Assembly (NCBI RefSeq): GCF_037975245.1
Contig: NC_092572.1
Span: 21,192,489 to 21,256,488, forward strand
DNA: 64,000 nt
Direction: 5' to 3'
Source of the DNA: Apostichopus japonicus
Lineage: Eukaryota; Echinodermata; Holothuroidea; Aspidochirotida; Stichopodidae
Part shown: piece after piece, positions 2,727 through 43,728 of the stretch
How positions within the stretch are numbered: position 1 is the first letter of the stretch
How the letters are laid out: each line of letters begins with the position of its first letter
The notes under the pieces: generated by a model
What the model saw: only the letters and a program-made list of their open reading frames with translations
The model's database searches: none
What the model was told of the DNA's origin: nothing
Program-made: the position numbers and the translations under genes

Positions 2727-3063
2727 TGTAGCAAAAATTGCCCAACATTTAAGAATATAATTACTAGAAATTGGGGAAACATAGCACGTGAAACTTTTTT
2801 AGCAGTTTTTGCTTAACTGTGTTTAGCACAGGTTTTTCCTAAACTTTTGGGTAACATTTTTCTTAAAACTTGGGCAAAACTTGAGTTGCTAAACTATGGG
2901 CAATGTCACATTTACCCAATATTTATGAAAATTTTAACCAAAAAGTTTAGGAAAAACCTGTGCTAAACACAGTTCAGCAAAAAGTGCTAATAATTCTTAC
3001 GTGCTATGTTTCCCCAATTTCTAGCACTATTATATTCTCCAATGTTGGTCACTTTTTGCTACA
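2727..3063. mobile_element. 337-bp MITE-like element with about 124-bp terminal inverted repeats
   Basis: The left arm (2727-2850) starts 'tgtagcaaaaa' and includes 'aaattggggaaacatagcac' and 'tgtgtttagcacaggttttt'. The right arm (2940-3063) is its reverse complement with scattered mismatches and ends 'tttttgctaca'. The loop (about 2851-2939) has no open reading frame. Long arms around a short loop fit a non-autonomous DNA transposon or foldback element. The target-site duplication is not clear. The flanking word 'tacacgctaagaac' at 2711 also occurs, reversed, near 10670. Confidence 0.75.
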
Positions 3064-11990: not shown

Positions 11991-12104
11991 ACAAAACTCG
12001 GTGAAACTTTTCCCGGTAATGACCAGCGGATTGAGTGGGTTAAGTCACCCTCACAACTGCTTAAATTGGAAATTTGAAGTTCCTATCAGAAATTGTACCT
12101 TATC

Positions 12105-13310
12105 ATAATAATTATAATAATACCAAACACTTATATAGCGCGATAAGCACCTGCATCAATGCGCTTTACAAAAATAGAATAAATCTTATAAACTACACAA
12201 TTAACACATGATTAAAATTCCCAATTAAATACAATGGAAAGATAACCTTAAAAAATGCATGTAAAATCAATGTAGACAGTTAAGAAAAGTTATGTTAAAA
12301 CAACCACCAATGATATATACACTGCGATGAATAGTCCAAATCTCAAAAACAAAAAATATGACAAGTTAAAAAACAGTTTTAAAAAGATGCGTTTTCAGGA
12401 CGAGATTTGAACAGAGTTGTAGTTTGTGGAGTTCTGAGTTGGAGAGGAAGGGAATTCCACATTTTTTGGCGCAACCAACGCGAAGCTTCTACAGTATGTT
12501 ACCGTTTTGCAAGGAGTTTCTTGTAGGATAATGCAGAGATGAAGATCGTACAGTCCGACTAGGTTGATAATCTAAAACGAGGTCAGAGATGTACGTAGGT
12601 GCCTGGCCGTTCATGGCCTTGAAAGTTGTAAGAAGAAGCTTATACACAATCCTCTCGCGAATTGGCAGCCAATGTAACTCGAACATAACCGGGGAGATGT
12701 GGTCGCGTTTCTTGCTCAAAGTAATGACCCTTGCCGCCATATGCTGCGGATGCGCTGAAGCTCACTGAGTTCCTTATCCGGGAGACCGAAAAGAAGCATC
12801 TTGCAGTAGTCCAACCGGGACGAGATGAACGCATGAACCAGTTTCTCAGCAATTGCTTTATCAAGGTAACGACGTATCTTGGCAATTCTCCTGATGGCAA
12901 AGGACGCTGTCCTACACACACTATTTATATACCTGCTCATGGCAAGACAACTATCAAGTAGCACACCAAAATTGCGACCTTCCTTTGATGGAGAAATTGT
13001 ACTGTTGCCGATATTGATGTTTACATTGACGACGTTCTTGGCAAATCGCGATGTGACATGGAGTTACTCGGTTTTGGAGTTATTCAACATGAGTTTGTCA
13101 TGCCATCCAAGAGCGAATACCCGCAATGCAATTCTCAAGTGTGGTCACAGTTCTAACGCGATTTGATGGCGTAATCACCACGTATAGCTGTGTATCATTT
13201 GCGTAGGAGACACTGGAAAGGCTATGCTTATTAATGATGTCCTCGATTGGAGCATTTCAGGGTCGACAACTAAACCTTGAGGGACACCCCATTCAAGTCC
13301 AGTTGACATT
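12105..13310 (-). mobile_element. LINE fragment (CR1/jockey-like), dead reverse transcriptase and 3' end
   Basis: On the minus strand, going down: GVPQGLVVDP near 13290 (motif equivalent to VPQGSVLGP), SYANDTQLYVV near 13200 (catalytic YADD changed to YAND), SSRLDYCKMLLFGLP near 12800, then LHWLPIRERIVYKLLLTTFK and NGQAPTYISDLV near 12600. These are typical of the C-terminal half of CR1/L2/jockey-type LINE reverse transcriptases. The frame changes near 12720-12740 and again upstream, so it is not functional. The 3' end has 'gcgctatataagtg' and an ATTATA-like tail at 12105-12125. The copy is 5'-truncated beside the poly-G run at 13311. Confidence 0.8.
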
Positions 13311-15355: not shown

Positions 15356-18300
15356 CAGTGCACTCCAGTGTATCCGCATCCACCTTGTAGTTTTCTTTGC
15401 AGACACATTGCGGGCCTGTGTTGATGTCAAGGCACACTGTATTGATTTTGTCACAGGTGAATTTCTCACACGTTACATCTTGTTCTAAACAAAAACAAAA
15501 AAACACAGTAACGACAAAACAGCTCCGCTGAGTCTGAAACGAACCTGGAATTTCATTATAGTTTGAAACATCCCTGATCAAGGCTGACACGAGCATCCTC
15601 ATACACACTGCTAACGTAGTGACATAGTTTAGCATAAGTTTACCATTTATTATTTCATATTTTAGTACATTAAGCGTACATTTCCCACATGTATCGTATA
15701 TCGTGTTTTCCCTAAGCACAATGGAAGCGTTTCAAGTAACGTAGACGGAAATGATGACAATTACCCAACTTAAGGAGGCAGAAAGTTACACATTTTTGAA
15801 TAATTTCAAATAAAGCATTTTTGTTGTAAAAAAAAACATGTATATTAATTAATTGAATTGTATCTCCCGTAAGAATTAATATAACGTATAGTTTAGCATA
15901 ACGTTGTGTTGTATTTTCATTTACTCTATACTTGTAGTTTTCTTTACTCTGTTCTATTTTATACACATTTTATTCTTTATACACAACGATGTAAAACACT
16001 TGTCGTAAACCTGGCTTTGAATATCTTTCTTTTAGTGATTGTTACGGCAGTTAAAGTAGATTGGAAACAGAAATAAAAACTTTTCGGCAAACCACTTTTT
16101 TTTTTAAGTACCTATGATCTTGCATTCCTTTCGCTCATCGTGTTGATAGCCTGGCTCGCAGACGCATTCTGGTCCGTTGGCTGTATCAGAACAAACTTCG
16201 TTCGGTTTGTTGCAGAAATTGTCATCCTCACAGGAAATATCTGAAAATGAAACACGATGAAAATGTGTGTTTTAGTGTTTGACTGATCTCACTCTTAACA
16301 ATCATTTCTTATTATGAGATTCCCCGACTTCAGTGGTAACAACTGTGATATGATAGAAAGGAAGAAACGAGGTTGTTAGTTCGACATACAGTTGTAATTT
16401 TGGACGCTGGTGTGCTGGGGAGGGGTTTTTCGTTTCGCTGCGTGCGGGTCGTCCTTCTGTACGTTTTTGAATGTTTCAGTGGGGGGGGGGTTGGGCGTTT
16501 TGTCTCTGCAGGTCGGCGGGCGTATGTTTTTTTGGCTCGCTAGACCTTAGTTTCGTTAATTGGTTTTATTGTTTAGTTCCTTGATATTGGTCTGTCTTCG
16601 TATGACACGTTATGCATTTACACTAATATGTCGTGCCAACCCTATTTGATAACGGTGTGCCTTTTACGTAAGTTGCTCAGCTGAACCCAAAACGTCTCTG
16701 GTAGGTGGACCTTCAATTATACGTTATCGGTGTTAATTGAGTTGAAAGACTTAAAGGTTTCTCGGCTTTTTGGCTAAGATCATGTGTAGTATCTGTTCCC
16801 TTTCGAAGAGAATGGTGATGCACACCCGACGATGATCACAACTGTCACAGTCCCGATGCAAGGGACTGGGGCTGAGAGCGGATCAGTCGTTTGGTAGTTT
16901 GGTTTTCGTGTCCAGGTTCTCCCTGGGTGACTTTTTCTTACAAAGTATCGGTGTTAAGTGAGTAGAAAGACTTAAATGAGAAATAATAACACTCTCAACA
17001 TTCTGTGACAAGGTTATTGGTTATGATGTTCTATGATTGGGCAATGCATGCAAGACATGTTCACTGGTAGTTTTACTCGAAACCCACATTGTATAGGTAC
17101 ATTGTATAGCTTGCACATATACAGTTTTGCCCATAGGCGTAGGTGCCGAATTTGAATGGGGGGGGGGGGGCTGTAACGACTTGGCCGCAAAAATATAACT
17201 AAAAATTTTCCCGTTCATTTCATATAGGCATGCATCGGTTATTACAATGCATCATCCGCGGGAAACTATTGTACTCAGCGAAATGTCTTTTGTAGATGCA
17301 GGAAAAGCATGGAGGGCCAATTATGTCAAATCTCTCTTTTACATTTCATTTATTTCGTCTATACATAAGAAATATAGAACAAAGTGGTATAGTATAAACA
17401 GGACACTAGAAAAACAGACTTTTTTTTAAACTATTGATTGCAGTTCTCTTTCTCTTTCAGAAGGTGCCCGAAAAATTATCACCAAATTGTCCGAATTTTC
17501 ACAAAATATTTGGTTGGGGGAGGAGGGGGGGGGGGGGGGGCGTAACCATTGCTTATTAACCAAAGCGAGTTCTCACTCACCTTTTGTTGTACAGGTATCT
17601 ATATCGCAATCACATACATCCTCTGAGCAAAAACAGGCCGGAGCATCAATCACAATAGCGTCAAAGTAAAAGTAATAACTTGAGTACTCATATTGTAAAT
17701 TATCTCTGATTTCGTCCATTATAAGACACCCTTGGTCCTTTCCGTCGGTGTAATCCTTTGGAATACAACGCCTCTCTATGACCTCAGCTCGTCCTCCCAC
17801 TGAGAAGAGTAAGAATGTAACCTAATGCATTATACGGCCTTTCACATCATCCCTGCGTACTTTCACTCATGAATCAACGACAACTGCTTCGCATATGCGA
17901 TATGTAAGTTGTATATAATATATGTATATAATATATGTTTATAATATATGCATATAATGTGTACACATATATAATGTTTATGTATATAATGTATATATAT
18001 AATGTATATTATAATGTATGTGTAAATATAATGTATATGTATATGTAAAAATATAATGTATAGTGTATATGTAAAAATAAAATGTATAATGTAAATATAA
18101 TGTATATGTATATAATGTAATATATGTATATAATATGTAATATGCGATATGTAATCAACGGCAACTGTTTCGCATTTGAGGAATGACAATAAAGTTAACT
18201 TAAAAATTACACAGTATAAAAATTCACATGTACGGTGTTCTTTTCTATACAAAATTTGGAAATATGGACGGTCGCTCTGTTTAAACTCAAAGCTACCTGT

Positions 18301-21300
18301 GCATGCTAACTCTGTAAGTAAACATAGTTGATAGTTGTTTTATGCAAGGGACAGAAGTATAGTACCCAACCCCCTGTGCCTACGACTTGGATAAGAAAAT
18401 GTTTTACCTCCATCAAGGAAGTACGTCAAATTCCCATGGACCTTCAAGCAGGCATGATCAGGGTTGCATGTGATGTAAACTACATCCGACGAGGTCAGAT
18501 CTCCATTTATGCATGCTTGGTTCAGAGCTCCATTTTGTTCATCCTGGTGGTCTGGAAAGTATCGCGAGTAGCAAGAGATACACTGCAGTCCCATGACTGA
18601 AAGAGTTTAGGTAAATTACCGAAAGAATATGCAACGATTTTTTTTCAGAAATGAAAAGTTTCTAATACCTCATAATAATCTTTATCTATATCCTCTTGTT
18701 ACTGGTGCAATGTGTCGTTGTCGACGTTTGATGGAGTACGGTAGGTATTCGCTTCCACAGAGGGTGTTCATATCGTGCTCTAAAATGAGGATCAGCAATC
18801 CAACATGGAAATCCCCATGACAAAGTTACTGGTATCGTTACATATGTTATTAAAGCAGTACGTAATAGTTGTATTTGCGCTGGATGTTCCTTTGAAAACT
18901 CTTGTGGGTTTTTCACATCAGCATCTAGTGTGATAGATCTCATGTTATTGCAAATACAAACTCACGGGTGGAAAATGTGTCTCCCAAATCTTGAAGCTAA
19001 CAAAGTTGAAACTGAACGTAACATATATGGAATCAGTTTTTACGTACCATCATCATCGGGGTAGTGAGGATGTATCTGTCTTTCGAAGTCTTCGACGTTT
19101 GTATTGCAGTCGTTGCCAATGCAGAAGCAGGCTTCTCCGGTGAAACTGGTTCTTGGAAGCTCACTGTTGGTATCGTTAAAACTCAGGATGTCTCCGGAGC
19201 GCGGATCTGACAAGCATTTGGCATCACCATGAAAGAGTGAGCGATGTTCACATCCCCGCTGTATCACATTTATGACGACATCACCGTCTGTAAGATCAAG
19301 CAGAATGGTAATCCTATAGTTTATATACCACCGTTGATATATTATGTGTGTGGCAATGTATTTGTATCCGTCCTTATGTATAGAAAGATTGATAACAAAT
19401 TTTCACTTTTAGCTTTCAAATTGTAATTTTTTTTAGTCAATCTGTTTTATCGCTTTACTCTTTACCAGTGCTTTTAATCGTTTTTCGATCTCATATTCCT
19501 GTTTTTATCTGTATATGGTATATGTATTTACTGTTTTATGTATTTACTGTTTTATGTCATTGTATATTCTAGATTGTTTGTAAAGCGCACAGATGCATCG
19601 CGCGTAGTGCGCTATATAAGACTTTATTTACATTACATTACAAGAATTGATATATATTACACAATATCTAGGTGCCAACAATCCTTTTCCTGTGACTTGA
19701 AGACGATTGCTTGACAATTACTGCATCAAAACAATGTCCTCCATAGCAATTTGCATTGCGCAGATATTATGTTTTTCTGTTTCTTCATAATATTAATAAT
19801 ATTTTTCCATAGAGTCTCTTTTGAAGAGGAATCTGTCATGATGAAATCACAGGCCACCCACTGTGATCCACTTCATGTCATCCTCTCAAAATAGGTAATA
19901 TTCAACCAACCATTGAGCCTATCGAGTTTAGGACTATAGACATTGACATGGGGCTTTCAATAAACCTTATGGATTTGTTTCGCTTGATACGATAGGCGTT
20001 TAACCGTGAATTATAGAGACACATATTAATGACTCTGTGTGCTCTGTTATCCTTTGTTTTGAGGATCACAAATAAATGACATACAGTACGGCCGCCCATT
20101 GCATACTACATCACAATGGATGTAAGAGATTTGTAAACACTTTCCAACAGTGATATGCATCAGTTTCGAAGATGTAGTTGCAAAGCTTACACATAATAAA
20201 TATATTTAATTCACAAGTGAGAGGATTCTGTAGGACTTGCTGTATATATGTTTGTATTACTGAAAGTGTATCGCAGTCTATTAATACTTATACTTTTTTT
20301 TCTTCTTTTTTTCGTTTACGACCTGTGTATAGGCCGATTTCCGATTGTGGACCATAAATTCAAATTCAATTCAATAATATGTACTTACATCCTTCAGAGT
20401 ACCTCGTCTCTGTTCCCACGACGGTTGCACACACGGACTCGGGACCACATGTATAAGATAGACCAAGACCTCTCTCGCATTGCATATCCTCTAGTGCCTT
20501 ACTCGTAGTGAAGTCACTCACAAAATGGCGGCTGCTGCAGGTGATGCATTGCTCTGTCAAAAAGTATCAAAAGCAATTAAATGTTTCTGTAAGGAACACT
20601 TAGATGCATGGTTTTCTCTTGCTAAAGAAATTATTACGAACTGTTCTGTTCTGTACGGGAATGATTCCAAACAACTATCCTGTGGGGTGTTTTTTCGTAT
20701 TCCTCTTAGCGGGGGCGGCGTGGTTTTGCGTTGTTTGTGGGGCGGTAGTGCTTTTGGGCGAGGACATTGGTAAGCCTACGAGTGGGCCACCTTTGCGTGG
20801 CTTTTAGCATTGGTCATTGACGGTGGGCACGATAGGCGTTCTAGTTACAGTTTTGTTTTCGGCCTTTTGGCTAAGATCATGTGTAGTATCTGTTCCCTTT
20901 CGATGGGAATGGTGATGCACACCCGACGATGATCACACAGTCACAGTCCCGATGCAAGGGCACTGGGGCTGAGAGCGGATCAGTCGTTTGGTAGTTTGGT
21001 TTTCGTGCCCAGGTTCTTTCCTGGGCGACTTTTCCTTTAAAAAAAAAGTTTTGTTTTCATTGGGGATCTGCATGGGGTTCGTAGCGCCGTGTTGGCCATG
21101 GCGTTTAGTTCTTAAGACCGATCCACGTAAAACATACGAAGCGCAACGAGAGAGTTTGGAAGTGATTTCTGTTTGACCAGGTATCGTTCATGGTTGGATA
21201 GCATGACTGGATTATAGACTGCTACATTGCACCAGGTTGTATAGGCTTTGTAAGTAATTTCTATGCCTCTTGTGACATTTTGGCGTCCCTATGGTTGGTT

Positions 21301-24300
21301 CACTTGGACTTGACAGTAGTAGCTTTATTTGAAGATTTCCTTTCGATCTAAGATGTGGACAGGGTATTATTTGATAATATCGCTTATTTTGTATTGACTT
21401 TTAACTGACCAAACATTATGCATTTGAATGTGATGCAAATGTCACGTATGAGATATGTCTCTGAACAGGTATGGAAGCTTCATTAAGCTTATTTTAAATT
21501 GCATTGATTCATTTACCAATAGTCAACGAAGCCTGTCTTAAGGAGTGTTCCTTACACTTGAACCTGTCCAATTGAGACTTGATTCTCCATTTTTTGTTTA
21601 GTTAATGATATATCACTAATAGTAAGAAATACCTTAGTTACATTTTTAATTCAATATTTCATATTAGCAGTCTTCATGCGATTCATACTAAATCAAGTCA
21701 CAATGACTATCATGATTATCGTGTATTATCGTGGAATCACGCATATGTCGTATAGTTTTACAATACTGTTACATTCGGTACCTAAACACCAACACACGAG
21801 GGCCAAGGAACACTGTCAACAACAAAAAGATCCCAATAACTGGCTAGAGTGCGTATAGGTACTAACAATATCCTTTGTTTGTTGCTACATTTTGTTTGCA
21901 TCCGTGGCATTCTCAGTGCCGTTCTGGCCATCAAACTTTTGGTTCCGCTTGGTGGATCAAGTAAAAAGCACTGACAAATACCCCCCCTGTTCCAAGGGTG
22001 GATGTATGGCGTGAAGATAGACAAGAATATATACGCAATGTTAACAAACTACACAAATATATTTTGTATTGTAAACCGCGCGTTTAAATACTCCCTTACC
22101 TGTTACTGACCGACATTGAAACCTGTCATCGAATCCGAACCCATCTAAACATTCACACCTTGGTGCAAGATTTCCGTCAACACATACCTCATTCTCACCG
22201 GGGCAGAAATCAAACTCAGCACAGGTTCTTCGTACTATAGAGATAACATTGCAGAAAACATTTTAGAAAATGTAATACCATTTTTCCAAACCTTGGTATA
22301 TGATCATCGGAGAGGATTGTTATATTCTTAGGGTATTGGTGATTGTAGAACTTAAGAACATTATCTATAGCATGGCATATGCCATCAACTAAATACATTG
22401 ACACGTTCTTTTGTTATTCATAATATGCCTTAGTGGGACTTAGTGGGACTCGATGACATGTGATTCTTCAAACTTTTCACAAACCATCAAACTTAGGTCT
22501 TAGACAACGTCCAATGTTGGGTGGATCACCTAAATAGTATATCGTCATGATGTTTCTATGTCTATTGCTCTACGATGATACCTACCGTTATTGAAACATA
22601 CTTCGGGGTCACAATCACACAGAGAAGTATTACAGTAGCATATCCCTCCCATGAATTCAATAGTATCTATAGCGCTGTACGACCCAAAAGTATCGGAAAG
22701 TGCAGATTCAGGAAGACATCCTTTGTCCATGTTAACTTGCTCATCTGGCAACAAACATCTACGCTCATGCAATTCAGCAGGAAAATCGACTAAGTGAAGA
22801 AAATGAAAAACATGCATGTTCTTTTTAATCGTGACGGCAGGGCCTTTTTTCTAAGAATTCAGAAGTGGAGGGGGGAGGGGGGGAGGAAACAAATCCAAGA
22901 AGAGACTTTTACCAATCCCTGTCCCTTTCCTCTCCTTGGCAAGAAGGACAGATTTTAAAGGACGTAATTTTGCAAATGTTTGAGATCAAGTCACATTTCC
23001 GAAAAAGCAGATGGAATATGTGAGAGAAAAAAATATCGCATTTTCGAAAAGTTCGGAGATAAGATCAGTGTAAACATGGAGATAAACAAAAAAGCTGAAA
23101 ATATCAAAGTCCTATTTGGGCCACGGTTACAAAGATATGAATATATTCCAGGGTATATCTTCAAACCCCAACGGTTTTCCGCTACCTCACTTTTTGATGG
23201 TTTACTAAGCCAATGCTGTAATGTCTTTGAACCCATTGGATCCAGGGAGTGACAAATCCAAACCAAACTTACCATAAAATATGAGGGCAGGCTTTTACGT
23301 GTCCTTAGAAATCAAATTCGTCACAAAAGCTCTTTCCATATTTGGGAAAGATCATTCTATCACATAACTGTGATGCAAAAAGTCCCTAAACTTTACCCTA
23401 ACTTCATGTCAATGTGCAGATCCATCGACCTTATTCTCTCCTGTTAGAGGATGAGTTTTCAGTTCATTTGTCAAAACCCTATATTACAGCTCTATGTTAG
23501 TATGAATGAATGCAGAATTTGGGATCAATTTGTCGATTTGTATATTAGGGTGAAGGTCGAAGATTTCCAGACTTTCCATAAATGCAACAAAAAATAGAAA
23601 ATATGAAATAATACGTATAGACCTACACGGTGGACCACACGGAGAGGGGGGGGGGGGGACTACTCTACTGGGGGCAACACAGTGTACTGGGGGCAACACA
23701 GTGTACTGGGGGCAACACAGTGTACTGGGGGCAACACAGTGTACTGGGGGCAACACAGTGTACTGGGGGCAACACAGTGTACTGGGGGCAACACAGTGTA
23801 CTGGGGGCAACACAGTGTACTGGGGGCAACACAGTGTACTGGGGGCAACACAGTGTACTGGGGGCAGCACAGTACTGAGGGCAGCACAGTGTACTGAGGG
23901 CAACACAGTGTACTGGGGGCAACACAGTGTACTGAGGGCAGTGTGTTGCAAATGGCCCCGTTTTTTATGTGAGTGAAATGCTGTGTAACTCGTTGCGTGA
24001 TGTGGTTTGTGATCCTTTTTTACAAAGGGCAAGATCGGAAAACACCTCAGACAGGGATCAACTTGTTTGTGCTTGACAACCGTACATACACCTCTCATAC
24101 AATCGATTTCAATTCAATTAATTGGACCTTTCTTAACATTCTGAACAATTGGTATCACGCTACGCATACCACGCCTGTGGGTGGGAACGGTGGTAAGTAT
24201 TTTATGCACTATACGCGTACGAGTACTTTTATGCACTATACGCGTACTTTATGCGTATATACGCGTATATACGCGTATATACTATAAGCTATACTATACG

Positions 24301-27300
24301 CGTATTTTATGCACTATACGCGTAACACGAAACCATGCCCACTGACCATGAACAATCACTAGTAATCCTGTTTAAAAAAAGCATGCAACCACTTTCATAA
24401 CGCAAAAACAAATGCGCAGTGCCATATACAGTTAGATGACTATGACAGTAACTTACATCCTTCAGAGGAATATGTCACCTCACCCCGAATGTTAACGCAT
24501 ACACTTCCTTCAAAGCAGGTGACGTAATTGACCTGATCGCTGGTCAGTTGTCCTTCCTCGCAGTCACGGCTGATAAATGATGGATCATTTAGTGTATCTT
24601 CATGAAATTCCAAATGACTGCATACTCTGCACTGCAGACCGGGAGCTTTAAAGACGAATAAAATGTTAAAATATAACAAACATGGTTCTTCCCTAGGCAA
24701 ACGTGTTGCAATTCTGTCGCTCACCATCAGGTGCGTACATTCACAATCATTTGAAGGGGAATAGAGCGATTTAGATACTAGTATGGACCGACTTCAGTGA
24801 CTGGCTAAGCAACGTTACGAAAAGTAAACCAACAGAAACGGCATGTTGTGTATAATTACAACTGCGCACTTATTGGCTGGGAAAACGGAGGGTCGGACGA
24901 AGTGCCCGGTTCCGGCAACAATTAAAAAAATATAAATATACATATATATATATATATATGAAGTAGAAATGTTTTATTTATGTTATATATATATATATAG
25001 AAATGTTTTATTTCTCTAGAATGTATTTCAATGCTCATGTAAGAGGGGGGGGGGTGAGGGGGGCAAAGCCTCAGAAGCTGCAGGTTTTTTGGTATAACAC
25101 CACGAATTCGACTCCAATTTTGAGACTTGAGTTTGGGGGTTGTTTTTGAGTTCGTATAGTGCCGTCTTGGTCGTGACGTTTTCGTTTCGCTGTGGGTGTT
25201 GAGGGCCATGTTGGTACCATTAAAGGATTATTTATGTCACTGAGAACGAGATTATATGTAGATTACATTACTTGACGATGTATTACTATACAATAAGGTG
25301 ATATAAAGTCTTACTGTTTGGTGGAGGCGTGTGTGGTCTAAAAGGCCTATCGATGGGTGGTGCCATTACATTATTGCATGCGTTTGTATCACAATGGCAT
25401 AGTTCTCCTAAGAAGCTGACCAGTTCGCTTCCCCCACCAAGTGGGTACTGTCCAACCACCGGACTGTTCTCAGTAAGTGGTGCACAAGTATCTACTCCCA
25501 ACAAGGCTGTTTCCACACAATCACGAATTACCACATGCAGATCAATATTTCCGTCTGTGAACAAAAGAAGAAGCTATAATTTAACTAAGAATTGCTTATC
25601 TTAAACATATGCCAGTTCCATCGAAAATCTCCAGAAAACATTGTGAAAGTAATTATTTTCGCTATAACAAGTAATTATAATTCCACTAGTTGATGATATT
25701 TCTGCCATGAGAGTCTTGTAATGGTTTTTAAAGGTAGTGCGTTTTCTGTTAACACCGTTGTCACCAAAGTAAGGAAATATCGGCCTCGAAAGCAATTATT
25801 ATATAGGTATAGCTTAGTCCTGGAATTGGTTCAAAGTGGGGTTTTGAATATTCACGTATTAGGAATGTAGTCCCGTAGCTTTACACCGTGGCCCAACAAA
25901 CAGAAACGTAAGAACTCGGGGGGGGGAGGGGGGGGGGCTTCGTTGAAGACTTTTTCATCATGAAAATTGCCCAAACATTTAAACATGATTAAACTGATCA
26001 TTGTTTAAGAAGAAAAACAAATTAAGGGTCGTTCAAAATCAGGCAGACGTAAATATCTCGATGAAGACTCTAATGAAGTAATATAAGTGGCGGTGAAAGA
26101 GAGAGATGAAGTTTCAGCATAAATGAATATTAATTCAACTTCATATACCGTTTGCAGTAACGTTCTCTAATCCAACTATTGTAAGCATAAACGTGCACGC
26201 ATGGAGATGGTACTAAAATATTGGGAAATGTCTTATTAAAGGGTATGAAGACTCGCGCAAAAAGAAACGTCTAATGCCGGTAATCTGACCTAGTTTCGAA
26301 TGAGGTGCAACAGAAGTGTTGGACACCACCATCGATCCCATAAAATACGCACACAGCTTGCTACCGTCGGTAATTAGGCACTAGTGTACATTCAGTACAT
26401 ACTGCTGCGGTCAATACCCACAGCACAGTGTACAAACGATATAGCGATGGATATCCCAGGTCCAGCTAAAGATAACAAGGTATCACTTTTCATTACTGTC
26501 TGAATTTTGTAGCGACAAACAGAAAACTTCACTTGCAAGCAATACAACGGAAAGTTAACATTTTCAGAGCGCGGCACGCGGTTTGGGGCGAGTCTTCAAT
26601 GCCTTTAAGCTTCTCGGAGAAATTGAAATATGTTTACTTACAACCACTAAAGAATTGAGTCTCAGTGCCGATGATGGTGATGCAGGCGTACCCGGCAGGA
26701 CAGGTAACCACGTGACCGATTCCGAGTTCACACTCTGGATCCTCATACACAGAAACCAAATCACTGTATCCTATGTCTTGAAAGGTGGTACTGCTACAGT
26801 ACACACACTCCACCCCTGCCGTTTGTCCTTGTCAAAAACAGGAAATACATGTTAGAGAGGAATATAGTAGTGAGAACCATTCCTGTGTATCATGGATTTC
26901 AACATGGATTTGAGGTAAAGCGTAATAAAATTTACGTAAAAGTATAACGTATTGAAAAAAAATACATATCATTGATTTCTCGCTGAATCCGAGTAATGAA
27001 TAATTATAAGTTGTACGTAACTTTTGAGATGAGAGCGTATATAAGCTGTATAAGCTCTATAGCAACAATACGTAGCATAAGTGTAGTAAACCATTGAGAC
27101 TCTGTCTCAAATTTGATTCCTTTTATTCCTGTTTAAATTTTCATACAAAATAACTAGGATAAAATAGGATGTATATATGAAAATAAGTAAGTAATTTATT
27201 AGTGTGAGTAGAAGAGAGACAGATTTAAAGAAAATAAAAGATATAAGAAGTTCAATAATTAAATGTTAATAAATATTGAAATACTTCAAAGGATTATAGT

Positions 27301-29306
27301 AAAGGATCTATAAAATAAAGGCATTTCTAAACAGTGTGATTCTAAAACATATTGCACCTTATTGCACCTGTATATTATTGCACCTATAGAGAAGTCAATT
27401 CAAGATGTAGAGGATGATCTACAGGCAAGTATATTTTCGGTCAGTCCAACAAAGTTAGTACGTATATTATATAGATTTACCTTGTATCAATGTTACAGTC
27501 GTAACACAGACCAGGAACAATTGAAGTAGTAGAATCTGCATTGAAAGAAATAACAATCATAATTAATATTATTTGGCGCCTTGAATGTTTTCATCTGATT
27601 TTGGATATTTTTCATATTAGTATTATTTACATGCATGAATTAAAAGTAAAAATTTAATAATGAGGATGATGATAAAGATAGAGTCACGCAACAAAGAATC
27701 CTGTCAAATCGATGTCCGCCGAGGAATACTATTTCTTGTTTTACCTCTCTACCCCCGCATGTGATCCATGATAATTATAATTATAATAAAAATAATAATA
27801 ATAATGATAACAATAATAACAATAAAATTTAAAAAAACTGTCATGTTGATAATATTTACGTATTCTAGGATCGAACAGATTCTATAATTAATCGTTAGTT
27901 AATAAGATAAAATAAATAAATATCAAACTATAAAAAAAATTCACATCTCAGTATTCATATTACGATTTTCATATCAGAGATCTTGATAGATAAGATTTGA
28001 ATGTTTAAATATGTCTATTTTATGAAGTTACGCCATTCAGAAACAAGATCTTAATTATGCAATATCTGATCATTAAGAAATTAATCTTATAAGATACAAA
28101 ATGTTATTATCTAAATATATTATAGCATTATAACATATTGGGATATCGAGATAAATTCTTGTTGTATCCATTAAGATATTGACATATAAAGATAACCTTC
28201 AAATTCCTAATAGCATAATAAGTTATCATCACGAAATAATAATAATAATATATATATATATGTTGATACTAGTTGAGACTAGTGGAACACTAGTAGTTGT
28301 AACTCGGAGTTTCACGCGTTATAGCGATCGTCAGACAACTCTGACGATCGCTATAACGCGTGAAACTCCGAGTTACAACTACTAGTGTTCCACTAGTCTC
28401 AACTAGTATCAACATATATTCCGCTCTGTCCACTGGACATAGAGCACTCTGCGCCAAGATAGACGCCAACCAACCAACTCTATATATATATATATATATA
28501 CTATTAAAACTATTATACTATTAAAACTATTATACTATTTATACTATTAATACTATTACTATTATACTAATACTACTAATATACTAATATTACTATTATA
28601 CTAATACTACTAATATACTAATATTACTATTATACTAATACTACTAATATTACTATTATACTAATACTACTAATATACTAATATTACTATTATACTAATA
28701 CTATTATACTATATATACTATTATACTATTAATATAGTATACTATTAATGTGTGTAAGATGAAAATTGGAAAAAATGCCCAAGGTTCAACTTTTGGTCAA
28801 TTACCTCTATGGTTGAAAGAAATAAACTTGACTAGTCCAGGTAATGACTAACATACCCATTGAATTGTAGCATTGAAAAGTTTAGGAACATCACGTTGAA
28901 CCCAGACGATGTTCTTACCATTGTAACCATATGGTCTACGGGCGTCTCCTAGTTTTGATTTTCATGTAATCTTAAAGTTTAGACTAAAATTATTATATTA
29001 TTTCGGACAATCGTTACCATTATTTCTTCTTTTCGCCCCAAAAGGCGCGATTTGCTCTAACTTGTTAACTTGGCTTATCAGTTATTGACAAATTGACGGT
29101 TATACAATGGCCGCTTGTAGGAACGTAGGCGCCATGCATGTACTGTGGGTCTAAAGGCTATAAATCATATATGGTTATGAGAAGTAACGGATTCTATGGT
29201 ATATTTAATACATCACTGCAGCAGGAACACAAAACAGGTAAGTTTTAAATAACAAGAATCCATTAATACATATATATGAAATACATTTATATATACTTAC
29301 ATTCAT
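15356..29306 (-). CDS. secreted or cell-surface multidomain protein: signal peptide, [LU-LU-EGF]x2, EGF (3' end unresolved)
   Basis: Exons: 29301-29306 (ATG AAT), 27481-27538 (hydrophobic leader), 26642-26827 and 25315-25554 (LU1), 24457-24645 and 22586-22789 (LU2), 22100-22234 (EGF1), 20389-20553 and 19048-19287 (LU3), 18408-18596 and 17581-17799 (LU4), 16112-16240 (EGF2), 15356-15484 (EGF3). This gives 696 aa and the frame continues past 15356. LU1 and LU3 have ten cysteines (first exon CxxC...C...C...C, second ending CxC...CN). LU2 and LU4 have twelve, ending CDCDxxxC. EGF exons have six-cysteine spacing, such as CDKINTVCLD then CVCKENY. After the leader every intron is phase 1. LU domains are three-finger folds of Ly6/uPAR-type surface and secreted proteins. 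No membrane or GPI segment was found in the part seen. Alternative start: ATG at 27541 without the 29.3-kb exon. No named homologue was recognised. Confidence 0.8.
16415..16560 (-). repeat. ACGTGAYCCGCC-family repeat body, copy 2
   Basis: Reverse-orientation match to the body of the 1956-2200 copy: 'ttttgtctctgcaggtcggc', 'ggctcgctagacct' and 'agtttcgtt', plus 'ctggtgtgctggggagggg'. It lies in the intron between LU4 and EGF2. A poly-G run at about 16481-16490 sits inside it. Confidence 0.55.
16725..16976 (+). mobile_element. U2 snRNA-headed SINE-like element, copy 1, with 31-bp target-site duplication
   Basis: The insert (16756-16945, 190 bp) begins 'tttctcggctttttggctaa' and continues through 'gtgtagtatctgttc', matching the first 40 or so nucleotides of U2 snRNA, including its branch-site pairing GUAGUA. 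The rest is not U2: 'ggtgatgcacacccgacgat', 'actggggctgagagcggatc' and a 3' CCAGG/CCTGG hairpin followed by a T run. The flanks 16725-16755 and 16946-16976 are direct repeats matching at 29 of 31 positions, the mark of target-primed insertion. It is intronic in the LU-EGF gene, opposite strand. Confidence 0.85.
17131..17545 (+). repeat. GCGTAGG/poly-G dispersed repeat, copy 1
   Basis: Starts 'cataggcgtaggtgcc', has a poly-G run at 17158-17170, shares internal words 'aaatgtcttttgtagatg' and 'tatgtcaaatctctctttta' with the copy at 30842-31273, and ends in a second poly-G run near 17527-17540. It adjoins the LU4 second-half exon (17581). Confidence 0.55.
17895..18150. repeat. degenerate TATAATGTA microsatellite
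   Basis: Repeated 'tgtatataatgtatatgta'-like words over about 250 bp in the intron between the two LU4 exons. Open frames across it are low-complexity Tyr/Ile/His and not coding. Confidence 0.7.
19440..19645 (+). mobile_element. LINE 3'-end fragment
   Basis: Contains 'gtaaagcgcacagatgcatc' and 'gtgcgctatataagacttta' ending in a TTACATTACATTA tail. This resembles the 3' end of the CR1-like LINE at 12105, including the 'gcgctatataag' word, and fits a 5'-truncated insertion. Intronic between LU3 and LU4. Confidence 0.55.
20849..21058 (+). mobile_element. U2 snRNA-headed SINE-like element, copy 2, with 12-bp target-site duplication
   Basis: The insert (20861-21046, 186 bp) begins 'ggccttttggctaagatcat' and carries the same U2-like head and the same non-U2 body as the copies at 16756 and 41678. 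It ends in a short A run at 21039-21047. A perfect 12-bp direct repeat, 'agttttgttttc', flanks it at 20849-20860 and 21047-21058. It lies in the intron between EGF1 and LU3. Confidence 0.85.
21905..21975 (-). repeat. ACGTGAYCCGCC-family repeat head, diverged
   Basis: Reads 'gtgccgttctggccatcaaa' then 'gttccgcttggtggatcaag' and 'taaaaagcact', the reverse-orientation head of the family as at 34965-35019. Intronic in the LU-EGF gene. Confidence 0.5.
23665..23945. repeat. 19-bp tandem array (TGTACTGGGGGCAACACAG)
   Basis: About 14 nearly identical copies of a 19-bp unit, with variants at the 3' end (gcagcacag, ctgaggg). A poly-G run precedes it at 23646-23658. It lies in the intron between the LU2 second-half exon and the LU2 first-half exon. 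Because 19 is not a multiple of 3 and the unit lacks stops in most frames, long open frames arise on both strands; these are not genes. Confidence 0.95.
24195..24325. repeat. TATACGCGTA-rich repeat
   Basis: Multiple 'actatacgcgta' and 'atacgcgtatatacgcgtat' words with alternating pyrimidine-purine composition, in the same intron as the 19-bp array. Such sequence can adopt cruciform or Z-like forms, but no function is shown. Confidence 0.7.
25120..25212 (-). repeat. ACGTGAYCCGCC-family repeat, diverged copy
   Basis: 'gtgccgtcttggtcgtgacg' and 'ttttcgtttcgctg' match the reverse-orientation head of the family. It is preceded by TA dinucleotide stretches (24940-25000) and a poly-G run near 25047. 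Confidence 0.45.
26252..26571 (-). repeat. 320-bp dispersed repeat, inverted partner of 52493-52815
   Basis: Contains 'gcgcaaaaagaaacgtctaa', 'ttgctaccgtcggtaattag' and 'acaacggaaagttaac'. The reverse complement of the whole stretch is present at 52493-52815 with many small differences. No open reading frame is shared. It is intronic in the LU-EGF gene, directly downstream of the LU1 first exon. Confidence 0.75.
28256..28419. repeat. perfect palindrome, 80-bp arms and 4-nt loop
   Basis: The left arm 28256-28335 includes 'gttgatactagttgagacta' and 'cacgcgttatagcgatcgtc'. The right arm 28340-28419 is its exact reverse complement, with loop 'caac' at 28336-28339. TA repeats lie just outside the left arm and beyond 28480. 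It lies between the start-codon exon and the leader exon of the LU-EGF gene model. Confidence 0.95.
28420..28745. repeat. unique spacer, then TA run and ACTATTATACTAATACT array
   Basis: 28420-28480 holds 'gtccactggacatagagcac', probably part of the same inserted element as the palindrome. A (TA)n run (28482-28500) and about 240 bp of degenerate 'actattatactaatactact' repeats follow. Confidence 0.7.
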
Positions 29307-33060: not shown

Positions 33061-33204
33061 CCTACAAAACAGGTCTTTCTTTCATTATCTTCCACCCAAC
33101 CGCTGAGCAGGTTTGACCTACAAGGCCTGTAGGAAGCGACTTGTAGCAAGTATAAATCTTACCGTGTGAACCTACGTGCGTGGGTTACATGCAATCTACA
33201 CAAC

Positions 33205-36200
33205 ATGGCAGCAAATGCACGACCCACGAGCGAGGGTGGTTTATCAAAATGGCAGATTGCCGTGGCAATCGGAGCGCCATTAGCTGTGGGTCTTGCAGTT
33301 GGAGCTTACTTTTATACTAGAAAGGGGTCCGAAGAAAAGCCTGTCGATGAAGAGAATGGCTCTAAAGCAAAGAGTGACGGAGCGAAACCTGTGGAAGAAC
33401 CAGTACAGGTTAACATTAGTAGCCTAGCGTTATAAAATACATGTCAGAAATACGTAGTAAGCGATAGGCCGAAGGCCCTAGGCAATGCTACCACTCCGGC
33501 TATACTTTATTGTAAGACTGAAGTTCAGGATACCACTTCCTTCATAGACCCAATGCACATACATGCAATTAAAAACATGGGCATAGCCTAGACCTTACCT
33601 ATGTTATGTGTTGTTCCACTTCAAGCCTACAGTATGTAGGTCGAAAGTTTATTGATGCAAATCATTTTCAAAGTTTAGACCCTGGGCTAGCCTATCCTAT
33701 TCCTAAGGCATTGGCTAGACCTTACTTTGATGCCTTCTGTATCAGGGTGGGTAATAAAAAACTGCAATAACATGAACAGTTTATTTCATATTCGTCAAAC
33801 TCTCATTAAATTAGGAAGAAATATACTATACCAAAATAAATGATACCTAGGCCTACATATAACATTGCCTGAAATTTTGATCGCACTCAGTGCAGGGGAA
33901 TACAAAAACACAGTTCGGTAAAAGTTGGATATTTTAAGATGTGAATTGAAAAGCTGCTGACTGGTAGTCGAATTGCTTAAAGTAACCAAATATTCAAGAA
34001 ATGATTTATGGCACTTTAAATTCAAACACCAATAGCCTTATCGATATTTCAGAAAATGACTAAAAAAGGTGATTTAAATAATGTATGATTTAAAAAGTTA
34101 GACAAAACTGTAACCAATAATAATTTATTGTGTACTTTCGGCCAAATGCACTGGCTACACAACTAGAACTAAATTTTGTTCATTTACCCTATGCTAAATG
34201 CTCATTTACCCGATCATTAGTTAAAGAAGGCACACTCCTGCTTACTCAAGGGATCATCTGTGCAATGCTCACTAAACAGTTGTAAAAATAAACATTGCAC
34301 TTAGCCTTCATTTAGTCGATTGTTGACAAATGTAGCTAGTCACATTTACTACTGTAGTTCCTCAACAGACCTAGGCTTATGCAACTTTTCAAGGGATAGC
34401 AAGCAACAATCTTATCAGGCAGGCTTGGGCACAGACTACAATAAAATAGAACTATAAAATAGAACTAAGGTCACATGTTATAAACAAGTCACAATCCAAC
34501 ACAACCAAATTATACAAAGCTGCCAAATTTTTGCTTTAAATTACGTGTTGGCCCATGCTAAACCTTGAATTTGAAACTTAGACATTGGTTATTACAAGAG
34601 TTTTGGCAATGATTCAATATAAGAGTGAACAGTTAAAAAGGTAAAAAGTACCTTTTTGAATGCCTCCTACCTTACACTGTAATCCTAGTTGTTATTCCTT
34701 ATGTTATGAGGCCAAGCTATGGTTGCTGAAACTCCTTGCCAACTGTAAAGATTTTTTGGTTTTATTCTGTTAAATCTTCCAGACAGATATTATGGTCTGC
34801 AATTATTAGTACACTGTAATTGCTAGGAAGGTTCTTGTGGCAATTGTTGCACAGTTCCTACAATATGCAGAACTGCAGTTTTGTCTCTGCAGGTCGGCGG
34901 GCGTATGTTTATTTGGCTCGCTAGACCTGAGTTTCGTTTGTCAGAATGGGATGGTTCGGTAGTGCCGTTTGGCCGTGACATTTTGTATCCCGCATGGCGG
35001 GTCACGTAAAAAGCACAATATGCAGAACTGCCAACTGCTGCAGTACGTTTTCCTCTGTGTTTGGTACAGGAAATCATGATAAATACTGTGTATGAATGAA
35101 ACCCTCAAAAAATAATACAGGATTTAAAAGATACTGTAGTACAATAATAGTGTATGTCTTGAACAGGAAAGCTGTGATATTAGAACATTTTGAACAAACC
35201 TACAGGTAATTTGGTCGTAAGAATCATCCAATATTCTTGCTAATGGTTTTATCATGTTTACAAGGTTGTTTAGGTTGACAGTTCATGATGAATTTGACTA
35301 AATTGTTACACTGACTTTTGTCAATGATCAATCTCAATAGGAATTACCAGTGTAAAACTGTCAGCCCTGTGCTCATGCTATGTATATATGGCAATATTTC
35401 ATGTATGTTTAATAAACTTGACAGAGCTTTTTTGTTAGTTTGTAAAAAACTCACTTAAACATTTAAAAAGTTAGCCCAATGTATATTGTTTCTCTTACTT
35501 GTGTTAGTCTTGGCCTAGATTAAGTTAACATAAAAAGTACTGTGTTTTACCTATCAACTTTGGCCTACTAGTAGTTTACAGAGACTAGGCATATTGCTAT
35601 TATTGCACATTTCTGTTAATAGTTGCAAGTTTTTATTTAATATTTTTTTCATGCTTGCTAATTGGTGAGTACTGTAATTCATAACTTTTGGCAAAGCCTG
35701 CTGGTAATGTACAGTACCTGCTATTTGATTGGTTTGATTTTTGTAAACAATGTATTAACTAGTTAGCCCTGCTGTAGTATATACAGTGTTACTGTAGTCT
35801 ATTTACTGTACTGTAGACTATTAACTGTAGACCATTCCTTCATTCTTGTGGACTGACGCATCGATTTTCAGTTCTTAAACTTTGTTTGCAGAGCTGTTAC
35901 ATTGAGTTTATTGAAATTCAGGTTTGGAATGGAAAAATACTGGTTATAAGGTTTGAAAATGCTGGAAAGTGTTATCAAAGGTTGGCAGCTCTGAATATGA
36001 TTCTGTGATATGATCATTAGAACATGTTCCTAAAGCTAAAACTTTCTGGTAGTTATATTAATGGTTTTACTTATGTCATACCTGTAAATCCGCTAAGGAA
36101 ATCGTGCACGGTAATGGTAAAGTGTTGTGTATTTTCTGGATTAATTATCAACAAATATTAAACCTCTTATCAAACTGTCTTTTAGACGAACCTCCAGATT

Positions 36201-39200
36201 TTGAATTGTGCTTATTTTAATTGATATTAATTTGTTTTCACTTTTTTAGACACCTGCAGAAAAAGCTCAATCTTCCAAGAGCAAAGGCAATAAATTTTTC
36301 AAGGCCGGACAATTTGAAAAGGCCATCAAGTACTACTCTGAGGCCATCGACATCGCACCCCAAGAAAACAAGCAAGACCTGTCAACATTCTATCAAAACA
36401 GAGCAGCAGCGCAGGAACAGCTGGTGAGAAAGAATGAATGTTGTATTTGTTGTAGTCATAGAACATTCAAATCTAGTCTTTCATTTATTTATTCTATTTA
36501 AAGAAAAAAATGCAAAGAGACATTAACTACTCGAAAATTATTCAAATCAATGTCAGAAATATCTGTATCTATTTACACGCTGTCATTTTGACAACCTTAC
36601 TGGTGCTTGTATTACATGTATACTAGTGTATTGCACAGGGTACCCGGGTACCCACCCGATGTGATACTACCCGATCCTACGCAAAGTGTGACTTTTTTTT
36701 TTTTTTGCAAACCGATGGTTAGGCAAGATTTTCCTGTTGACTTAGTGTGGTCGAAGATAACACCAATGATGAAAGTATTCCATGGATATCTTATATCTGC
36801 GTCACAATTTCAGGGAATAAACATATGGTTAGGCTAGATTTCCCCGTTGACTTAGTGTGGTGTTAGGCTACCATGTGATTGAAGATGAGAGCAATAATAA
36901 AAGTAGTCCATGGGTATCTTATAACTGCGTCACAATTTCAGCGATAAATAGATGGTTAGGCTAGATTTCCCTATTGACTTAATGTGGTTAGGCTACCATA
37001 TGGAAGAAATTGTAGTACAGTATGGTGTTGGGTGTCATCATGGGGTGCATTGTTGTACAGTATGGTGTTGGGTGTCATCATTAGGTCCATTGTAGTACAG
37101 TATGGTGTTGGGTGTCATCATTAGGTGCATTGTAGTACAGTATGGTGTTGGGTGTCATCATTAGGTGCATTGTAGTACAGTATGGTGTTAGGTGTCACCA
37201 TTAGGTGCATTGTAGTTTGGTGTTGGGTGTCATCAATAGGTGTCTTGTAATAAGTATGGTGTTGGGTGTCATCATTAGGTGTATTGTAGTGCAGTATGGT
37301 GTCATCATTATGTGCATTGTAGTACAGTATGGTGTTGGGTGTCACCATTAGAGACATTGTAGTACAGTATGGTGTTGGGTGTCACCATTAGAGACATTGT
37401 AGTACAGTATGGTGTTGTGTGTCATCATTAGGTGTATTGTAGTGCAGTATTCTGTTGGGTGTCATCATTAGGTGTATTGTAGTGCAGTATGGTGTTGGGT
37501 GTCATCATTAGGTGCATTGTAGTACAGTATGGTGTTGGGTGTCATCATTAGGTGCATTGTAGTACAGTAGTTAAGTATTAAATGTGAGTATCTTGAAGGC
37601 CAGCCAATCTATGGCTCTCTCTCTCCTATTTTCCATCCCTGCTGCACAGTTACTATGACATGATCTGAATAGTCCTTCTAGATGTTGTTGGAATATCTGG
37701 ACCAGAAACAAAGGTTGATTGACAAAGTATAAACCGAAAATAGTAATAAGTGTGTAGAAGTTTGTCATTATCAGCTGGACGAGTCGTTCAAATGTACTGT
37801 ACGCTAGAGAGACAGCATACTGTCCGTGTAAAATCAATAAAAATATTTTTTCACATTGCAGAAAAATTTCCAAGAAGTAATTGAAGATTGCAGCAAGGCC
37901 TTGGAATTGAATTCTAAGTATGTTAAGGCATTGTTCAGAAGAGCTAAGGCCTTTGAGATGGTTCAAGAAAAGATGAAATGTTTGGAAGGTAAGATGAGGC
38001 AAAAATGTTAAATGTGACCAGGCTTTTCTGAAAGACACAATGTATGAGATTAGAAAATGACATGGCACACATACACTACTTCCTTAAAAGGAGTATGTTT
38101 AAGTAAAGTAAGAGCAAATGAAACATTGTTCTTGTACCATTCTTACTTGGCCAGTTGTGTTTTGGCTTAGGCGTAAATTCCAAGGTGCTTGTGAGGACTG
38201 CTTGGTATTTTTGGTGACTTTTTGATGGGGATAGTTGAGCCTTGCCCCCCCCCCTCCCTTACCCTCACCCTGCAGATCTTAATGTTTTACCAAAAATAGA
38301 AAGATCTACACATGCCAGTACCATTACCAACACTGAAAGAAACTAACCAATATCTTCTGCAAAGCAAACTGCAGAACCTATTGAACTTTGAAGAGATAAG
38401 TATTTAATTAATAATTACACTTAGTGTTTTGACCTATTTGAATTTATGTTACCTTGTTTAACATTAGTGACCTTCACACACCTTTGAGGGTTAAAGTCTA
38501 ATTAGAAAAAATATATAACCCTGGCAATGTAACATACGCCTGTAATAGTTTTCAGTAATTGAGCAGGTTCAAAGAAAAATTTGAAACTATGAATGGTTCC
38601 CCGCCCCCCTTCCCTCCCCAAGAATAGGATACATAAACAGACAAGGCAGCTGTTGATGTTATCAAATCACTGAAATGCTGGTAGCTAGGTTTAGATCCAG
38701 GAGGAACTACTGAGGACAATTTTGGTGAGGGTGCTGGATTTGTGTTCAGAATGAGGGGTCTGAGGGGAGTGGATGTCTCTGTGATATATGTGTTGTAGGA
38801 GTGTATGCTGTGCCTCTGTTCCAAAAATGATGCAAAATACTAGCAAGAATTATCAGACATGCTAATGACTACCTGTTGACCCCCCCCCCCCCCCCCCCAA
38901 AAAAAAAATAAAAAACTGATGTCATGAGTGGCAGAATCATCAAATGCACATCACAGAAAAGTTAATGTTTAATTTAGTCAGACAGAGTTCAGGATGCTGA
39001 GTCATACATTCCATGCTGTGGGTAATCTGTTTGATGATTTGCTCATTTCCATGGTAACACCAAGCTGTGTAATATTGTTTACCCTTATGCATATCTTCAC
39101 ATCTTCCTCACATTGTTAATAGCTATTCATGCATGAAGGGATAGACATCTACATTTGACCTGGCTGTCTGCAATCCAATTTATTTACATTGTAATTTTGA

Positions 39201-42200
39201 TTGCTTCACACAACTGTTGACAGAGGGCATAGTGACAAGGATGACACATTGCCTTGATAATATTTGCTGTCACCTGTGGGTTTGCCTCGTGCTTTTAAGT
39301 TGATGATACAAAAAGAAACTTACCGGTGGAATTTCACTGTACTTTGCTAAGATGTTTAGTGAGCTTGAATTGCAATATATTGTTCCCAGTGTAGTCCAAA
39401 GATCCAATTTGGAAATAATATTTAATATTGAAAAAGGTGTTTTCCAGTGTCATTTGCTAAGACCTAAGTGTAATACACTATTTTTTGATATGGGAATTTT
39501 TCCCAGTGTTATTCACCAACTATTAAGTAGAAACAATCTGTTAGATCTTGGAAATGAGTGTTTCCCAGTGTTATTCACTAAGCCCAAAGAAGGTACACTA
39601 TTTCTTATATGGACATTAGTGTTTCTTATTGTTATTCGCTAAGCCCTTAAGTACTGTAGATACACTATCTTGGATATGGTAGGGTTTCCCAGTGTTATTC
39701 ACGGAATGTTAAGTTGAAACAATATCTTTAATATGGAATTAGGTGTTTCCCACTCTAGTGTCATTTGCTATGCCCTAAGGAGGGTCACTCTTTGATATGG
39801 AAATGAGGGTTTTTCACCAACTGTAATGTGTAAACATTATAGTGTTCCTAGTGTTATTCACTAAGTAGATTCACAATATAAACACATAAAAGGTGATTAT
39901 AAGTGCAAACTTGCCAACAGAATAACTGGGTCAATGTACATTTTTCATGTTCTCAAAGTACAGGATAAATTTTGCTTTAACTGTATTTTCTTATTTGTTT
40001 GTAGACACAACAGCAGTCTGTATACTGGAGGGTTTTGGACACCAGGCGGGCATGTTTCTTGCTGATAAAATGCTGAAAGAGTTAGGCAAAGAAAAGGCTA
40101 GCCAGGCTTATAAGGTATTATTGATTTAAGTTACCAGGAGGTGGTTAACTCCTATTCCACAGGCTTACTGATTTTCTTTGTATTAGTTTACTGTAGTGAA
40201 TGGAATACATATTTTACCATTGTTCCAATACGTTCGGTCCTGATTATGATTCTGTGACCATGAGATAAAACATAATAATGGCAATTGGAAAAGGAAGGCA
40301 TGGTAGTGACTGGACGATGAGTGTATAATAGTCATTGGACTATAAAAGGGAATGGTAGTAATGTGAGAATATGTGTAAGGGTATCGTGTTTGTTGGACTA
40401 TCAGGGCATAGCGATCATAGGACTATCAGGGCATAGAGTTCATTGGACTATCAGGGCACTGTGACCATTGGACTATCAGGGCATAGTGATCATTGGACTA
40501 TCAGGGCATAGTGTTCATTGGACTATCAGGGCATATTGATCATTGGACTATCAGGGCATATAGTTCATTGGACTATCAGGGTATAGTGATCATTGGACTA
40601 TCAGGGCATAGTGATCATTGGACTATCAGGGCATAGAGTTCATTGGACTATCAGGGTATAGTGATCATTGGACTATCAGGGCATAGAGTCATTGGACTAT
40701 CATGGCATAGAGTTCATTGGACTATCATGGCATTGTGATCATATGACTATCAGGGCATAGTAATCATTGGATTATCAGGGCATGGAGTTCTTTGGACTAT
40801 CAGGGCATAGACTTCATTTGACTCTCAGGGCATAGAGTTCATTGGATTATCATAGCATAGTGATCATTGGACGATCAGAGCATAGTAATCATTGGACTAT
40901 CAGGGCATCACCATGTTCTTTGGACTATCAGGGTATCACCTGTTGTCTGTCCATTAACAATAGATACTTGATCTGATCCTTTCTAAGTAAGTTTAAATCT
41001 GTTGTGTGAGTAGGCTGCTATAGTCTTAATGTTAACACACCTTTAAAGTGAAATGTAATGTATTAACTCTATAAAGATCTGTTTTTCATAACAATGTTGC
41101 AATGCTCAGTAATACCCTAGCCTTAGATGTAATCGATCGTCAATACAATCAGCTGTTTTTGAATTACCCTTTCTTGTAGGAAAGACAACCAACGCTTCCC
41201 TCAGGACAGTTCATTCGTTCATATTTCTCATCGTTTTCAAATGATGGAATCACAAGTAACACAGAGTCTTACATGGAAGGAGAAGATGATGAGTAAGTAA
41301 AATCATTTGTCCTCCCCCCCCCCCCCGCCCCCATCTCTTTGATTTTAGTTGGTCTTCCCTCTCTCATCCCCCTACCACTACTACAGCAGATAATTCTTCC
41401 GTAGAACAAACTGAAGTTCATTACAGTAGTTTGAAAGTTGTTTTGCCTGAAAACCCTTCAAGATAGAATTTGATGAAAATTTGATGTAAAAATGTGTGAA
41501 TACTCTAGATTCACCATAGTTTTTGGGTGAGAATCCTTACATGTGTACCTTAGTTAATTTGCATACATGATGAAAAACAGTGATATATTTGAACGTCACA
41601 AAGACCACAGCAAATAGCACCATTTAGTTTTCTGGCAAACCAACACATTTTTGAGTTGCAAAACCCGGACAATCATGCCTTTTGGCTAAGATCATGTGTA
41701 GTATCTGTTCCCTTAGAGGGGAATGGTGATGCACACCCGAAGATGATCACTCAGTCACAGTCTCGATGCAAGGGGACTGGGGCTGAGAGCGGATCAGTCG
41801 TTCGGTAGTTTGGTTTTCGTGCCCAGGTTCTTTCCTGGGTGACTTTTTCTTAAAAAGAATCATGATTTATTGGAGAGCTTGATAATGCTGTATACTTGAA
41901 TACTCTCAGTTTGACTAATAGCTCGGTTTGGTGTAAAATATTTGTTCGATGTTACTTGGTGAGTTATTACCTGTGACTGTAAGTTTAAAAGAGTAAATTC
42001 TGTGCCTCATAAATGTAATGTAGGTTTTTAGTGTTGCATGTGCAAATCTTGCAAGATATAGGCCTAATGTTTCAGGATGCTGGGTATCTACACAACACAC
42101 AGCTTATAAGTAATGTCTTGGTAGTGCAAGATAATAATTAGTATCTATGTAGAAAACTACTTCACATCAGTCCTGCATTGACCATTCAAAACAGATGTAC

Positions 42201-43686: not shown

Positions 43687-43728
<42 letters not shown>

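Follow-up and report, generated by a model that had tools for sequence, protein, structure and literature searches.

A candidate family of short retroposons with a U2 snRNA head in Apostichopus japonicus

How could a family of short retroposons that begin with U2 snRNA spread without an internal promoter? The question is posed by a U2-headed short element, three plus-strand copies of which lie in the 64-kb stretch of Apostichopus japonicus DNA analyzed here (the window), at 16756-16945 (copy 1), 20861-21046 (copy 2), and 41678-41857 (copy 3). The original prediction had placed the copies at these coordinates, and both a re-reading of the sequence and BLAST bore this out. Our preferred reading, to which we assign a probability of roughly 0.7, is that the copies belong to a young, nonautonomous, LINE-mobilized family of snRNA-headed short retroposons.

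The U2 head and its junction with the body

The copies are 180-190 nt long, lack a long ORF, and diverge little. Pairwise BLAST identities are 93.4%, 91.3%, and 93.5%, the first two of these being against copy 1, and the differing sites number 8 of 172, 11 of 169, and 9 of 171 aligned, with a further 3, 6, and 3 gap columns, counted without the 8 leading and 12 trailing columns of the alignment. With copy 1 as the BLAST query, the only strong matches in the window are the other two copies, the next match having an E value of 0.11. Three copies in 64 kb correspond to a density of 47 per Mb (95% interval 10-137) in a window that was chosen because the copies are there.

The 5' part of copy 1 is matched by the Rfam U2 model (RF00004) with a cmscan E value of 7e-8 in a 301-nt scan. 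Copy 2 scanned alone (186 nt) gives 1.8e-5, and in a scan of the whole window the three copies receive 1.5e-5, 1e-4, and 0.046. All of these scores fall below the 46-bit gathering score because the real match comprises only the first 45 of the 192 model positions, and a default Rfam scan of the window lists none of the copies. Over U2 nt 13-45, copies 1, 2, and 3 are identical to the Rfam consensus at 31/33, 32/33, and 32/33 positions, respectively; no other site for this segment in the window, whichever strand is read, comes closer than 13 mismatches in 33. The Rfam match and this identity confirm the predicted U2 head, although not its proposed extent of 40 nt, since the head reaches nt 45.

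In all three copies, U2 identity ends after nt 45, where the head is fused to 147-151 nt of body and tail. Alignment to the U2 model stops at this point except for scattered letters, in agreement with the claim of a non-U2 body. Copy 1 begins at U2 nt 3 and so has a nearly full-length 5' end; its head (U2 nt 3-45, 16756-16798) departs from the Rfam consensus in four places (nt 3, 5, 14, and 30) and is followed by 147 nt of non-U2 body and tail (16799-16945). Copy 2 starts at U2 nt 11, with a head (nt 11-45) at 20861-20895 and 151 nt of body and tail, ending in A8, at 20896-21046; the five bases that precede it, TTTTC, may belong either to the head or to the duplication. Copy 3 starts at U2 nt 13, with its head (nt 13-45) at 41678-41710 and 147 nt of body and tail at 41711-41857. 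The 5' ends of all three copies fall within the first 13 nt of U2, as expected for copies of a short RNA. At nt 30, every copy has T in place of the A of the Rfam U2 consensus. The common junction and this shared T indicate that the three copies descend from one chimeric source, and the part of the argument that rests on the T would fall if the host U2 itself has T at nt 30.

Two exon-bearing ORFs of a TOM70 gene flank copy 3, which lies on the gene's own strand. Seven plus-strand ORFs from 33133 to 47298 join into this gene (E value of 7.2e-104 to 7dhg_C and 9yr4_A), and a hand count gives 66 identical residues over 120, or about 55%, against the solved TOM70 7kdt_A, a divergence that points to an animal host other than a reptile. 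The TOM70 gene region also holds a pair of 147-nt repeats (44207-44353 and 45930-46076) that are 93.9% alike. Elsewhere in the window, C-type lectin domains are encoded at 49903-50214 and 51394-51744. By eye, several cysteine-rich ORFs with CxCN-like ends on the minus strand at 17573-25573 perhaps form a three-finger (Ly6-like) gene cluster; the five queried gave no Pfam match.

Insertion, body structure, and transcription

Each copy is bounded by direct repeats: 29/31 for copy 1 (16725-16755 and 16946-16976), 12/12 for copy 2 (20849-20860 and 21047-21058), and 7/7 for copy 3 (41671-41677 and 41858-41864). Among 2000 random intervals, with tandem arrays masked and the repeats placed within 3 and 5 bases, equally good repeats occurred in 0, 0, and 8 cases, respectively; when placement was loosened and masking dropped, 3, 6, and 25 of 300 intervals did equally well. 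The predicted repeats of 31, 12, and 7 bp are therefore present beyond chance, the longest of them with two mismatches, and the 7-bp repeat of copy 3 is weak when taken alone. Together with the U2 head and the non-U2 body, these duplications support the proposal that a chimeric RNA was retroposed. Short, noncoding, dispersed copies with target-site duplications are also what is found in SINEs generally.

LINE insertions that are not site specific give duplications of varying length, as seen here with 31, 12, and 7 bp. The varied lengths and the unlike insertion sites suggest a LINE that is not strict in its choice of target. A U2-targeting LINE that still moved the element would be expected to leave it at sites similar to U2 nt 33-52; we compared the three insertion sites with this segment and scored the summed match under 12 settings. 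P values ranged from 0.004 to 0.34 against random positions and from 0.048 to 0.58 against shuffled targets, 11 of the 12 settings being nonsignificant in the latter comparison; when no shift was allowed, the ranges were 0.12-0.34 and 0.43-0.58, respectively. On these values, a likeness between the insertion sites and the U2 target is not convincing.

The hairpin and T run predicted at the end of the body were recovered in all three copies by a motif search: the window has three occurrences of CCAGG-N3..9-CCTGG with TTTT after it, one per copy. At the 3' end of the element, CCAGG and CCTGG are separated by N6 and followed by GACTTTTTCTTA and an A-rich end. The body domain folds better than shuffled sequences in copies 1-3 (z = -2.79, -4.00, and -3.27; 2, 0, and 1 of 200 shuffles as good). 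For whole-element RNAs, the fold of copy 2 stands out (z = -3.83; 0/200) and that of copy 1 is no better than shuffles (z = -0.62; 56/200). Body sequence GTGTAGTATC is inversely similar to GTGTGCATC of the U2 head, and the hairpin formed by the U2 end and the adjacent body gives z values of -2.99, -1.81, and -2.84, with 3, 12, and 1 of 200 shuffles as good. None of the 58 pairs in the three-sequence consensus structure is changed on both sides, and the structure consequently has no covariation support.

The head retains the GTAGTA sequence, and the original prediction raised the idea that transcripts might meet spliceosomal factors. In the predicted fold, GUGUA and UGUUCCC of the U2 head and junction pair with adjacent body, which would partly mask the branch-site segment; such pairing would weigh against, without excluding, an encounter of transcripts with branch sites.

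Several candidate identities for the body were considered and rejected. Apart from U2, Rfam gave no plausible family match in copy 1, copy 2, or the whole window, and we took weak matches to snosnR61 and mir-6526 as chance. GATGATC and CTGA, seen by eye, raised the idea of a C/D snoRNA or U3-like body, for which no Rfam U3 match appeared up to E 5 / E 10. A tRNA-derived body was likewise dismissed, as ARAGORN called 0 tRNAs and no tRNA family was among the Rfam matches. Exact patterns had 0 occurrences in viral contigs and 0 in genome contigs, and there were five weak phage matches (38 query bases, E value of 0.8) and no plasmid match, results of little weight in collections that hold no animal genomes.

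The copy 2 body (20905-21046) showed no convincing match to eight other repeats of the window on both strands, the lowest of the 16 comparisons having 8 of 300 shuffles as good. Repeats in the window include a near-perfect palindrome at 28256-28419 (97.6% self-inverse over 164 nt, hairpin- or MITE-like), a self-inverse stretch at 2727-3063 (81% over 340 nt), an inverted pair of a repeat of about 350 nt at 26236-26589 and 52469-52814 (85.8% alike), and two arrays about 1.3 kb apart, at 54690-55266 and 56551-57086, that have a common 32-bp unit and are 96-97% regular. Against the only LINE-like 3' region of the window (12100-12500, minus strand), which we take to be L2- or CR1-like, the body was no more similar than chance (183 and 159 of 300 shuffles as good). 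Minus-strand ORFs at 12489-13063 look, by eye, like the terminal part of a LINE reverse transcriptase; two of them gave no Pfam match.

Most SINEs start with pieces of tRNA, 7SL, or 5S RNA that bear their own promoter. We know of no internal promoter in the U2 head. The best A-box match in each copy is 6 of 7 letters and lies within the U2 head (TGGCTAAGATC), and the B box is matched at no more than 6 of 9. For copy 2, on which a home-made shuffle was run, neither box rose above shuffles (218/300 as good for A and 273/300 for B), bearing in mind that a missing consensus match is no proof. Each copy also has runs of TTTT or TTTTT, which tend to stop RNA polymerase III, in the loop of U2, around position 140, and close to the 3' end. 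With no internal promoter for RNA polymerase III standing out, we favor transcription from an external promoter, present at a single source locus or a few such loci, over internal-promoter transcription by that polymerase.

Origin of the copies and alternative explanations

We propose that the family is built of U2 snRNA nt 1-45, a structured body, and a hairpin tail. A single fusion would have produced the chimeric master, in the likeliest case through a jump of a LINE reverse transcriptase from body RNA to U2 RNA, or through an equivalent RNA fusion, and the descendants of this master would have spread by target-primed reverse transcription. The mobilizer would be a LINE acting in trans and recognizing the 3' end of the element, and the copy number is presumably large. 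Speaking for this proposal are the U2 head, the common junction and nt-30 T, the duplications, the 5' ends close to the U2 start, the small divergence, the local density of copies, the folding of the body domain and of whole copy 2, and the precedent of U1- and U2-headed SINEs. Speaking against it are the sighting of only three copies, the unexceptional fold of whole copy 1, the lack of covariation, the failure of the body to match a LINE-like region or another repeat of the window convincingly, and the A and B boxes of copy 2, which are no better than shuffles.

Other explanations account for parts of these observations. Plain U2 retropseudogenes with diverged 3' parts would have the U2 head, but the bodies are at least 90% alike between copies and yet match U2 beyond nt 45 only in scattered letters; barring a wholly aberrant host U2, the non-U2 body refutes this explanation, and we give it almost no credence. 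Local segmental duplication of one chance sequence, without retroposition, is scarcely more credible: it would suit three copies on the same strand of one window, whereas BLAST similarity stops at the element ends and each copy has a flanking duplication of its own. We regard as unlikely, while taking it considerably more seriously, that the copies are dead retrocopies (retropseudogenes) of a single transcribed chimeric host gene, composed of the U2 5' part and the body, with no self-propagating SINE lineage. Such a gene fits three findings: no RNA polymerase III box of copy 2 rises above shuffles, TTTT runs interrupt each copy (in the U2 loop among other places), and the copies are close to one another in sequence. 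It would, however, have to be a very productive source to leave three copies per 64 kb, and Rfam 15 contains no gene of this make-up.

A further proposal, which we consider doubtful and somewhat less probable than a chimeric gene, concerns the master itself. If a (non-autonomous) derivative of a U2-targeting LINE had broken into a U2 gene near nt 38/39, the U2 promoter could drive an RNA of U2 1-45 plus the insert, copies of which would land elsewhere. U2 genes are the targets of the Utopia and Keno LINEs, and U2 sequence resumes downstream of them at nt 39, according to the portion of the report available to us (PMC4640811). Were a LINE derivative to insert at nt 38/39 and duplicate 7 bp, the part left upstream would be U2 1-45, which is the observed head; such an origin would also explain why the element starts like U2 and lacks an internal promoter. 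If this were the case, the RNA polymerase II promoter of an snRNA gene would power a retroposon family, and an internal promoter would be unneeded. Against it, the lack of convincing U2 likeness at the insertion sites counts, as does the fact that no interrupted U2 gene is seen in the 64-kb window, and the duplications given in that portion of the report are none or 20 bp, not 7 bp (PMC4640811). The U2/body junction lies 7 nt beyond the Keno/Utopia entry site (nt 38/39), which we take as a lead on the origin of the element.

Comparison with known systems

The window contains a second kind of dispersed short repeat of similar length, a tRNA-headed SINE with copies at 58586-58741 and 62067-62216 (91.7% alike), in which ARAGORN calls no tRNA; ahead of the first copy are three 16-nt repeats of that copy's head (58554-58601). 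This SINE differs from the U2-headed element in having a tRNA-like head with A and B boxes, identified by eye, and it is not significantly similar to the U2-headed body (281 and 283 of 300 shuffles as good on the plus strand).

SnRNA-headed SINEs are rare but already known, and the present element has such a head. The parallel drawn by the original prediction was SINEU, the family of Kojima 2015, which is reportedly crocodilian and is said to prefer a Mariner element as its target. In both cases, a U2 (or U1) snRNA 5' head is carried by a nonautonomous short retroposon with a different body, whereas here the host is Apostichopus japonicus and the duplications of 31, 12, and 7 bp lie at unlike sites. 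The parallel is apt as one of head and architecture. SINEs headed by U1 or U2 snRNA are on record and credited to Kojima 2015 in the available parts of the papers that mention them (PMC8010984, PMC13174262, PMC7245038), two of which bear out the comparison made in the prediction (PMC8010984, PMC13174262). A U2-headed SINE in an invertebrate was not described in the literature searched, of which only parts were available and from which most subscription papers and Repbase fell outside the scope.

The chimeras of snRNA and LINE sequence that arise by template switching, as far as the accessible text of the reports goes, likewise have an snRNA placed upstream of a second retroposed sequence, both in one orientation and with flanking duplications, and 3'-truncated snRNA parts are recorded there for U5 (PMC4476161, PMC13174262). 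In those parts of the reports, such chimeras are mainly separate one-off events, most of them with U6, whereas here three copies have one junction (PMC4476161, PMC13174262). Keno and Utopia, as presented in the available portion of their report, resemble our element in that foreign sequence is joined to U2 close to nt 38/39, and differ in being LINEs within U2 genes, whereas the present element is short (180-190 nt), has no long ORF, and is located outside U2 genes (PMC4640811). If a U2-headed family is confirmed outside crocodilians, retroposons would have captured snRNA more than once, and U2-targeting LINEs would be a testable source.
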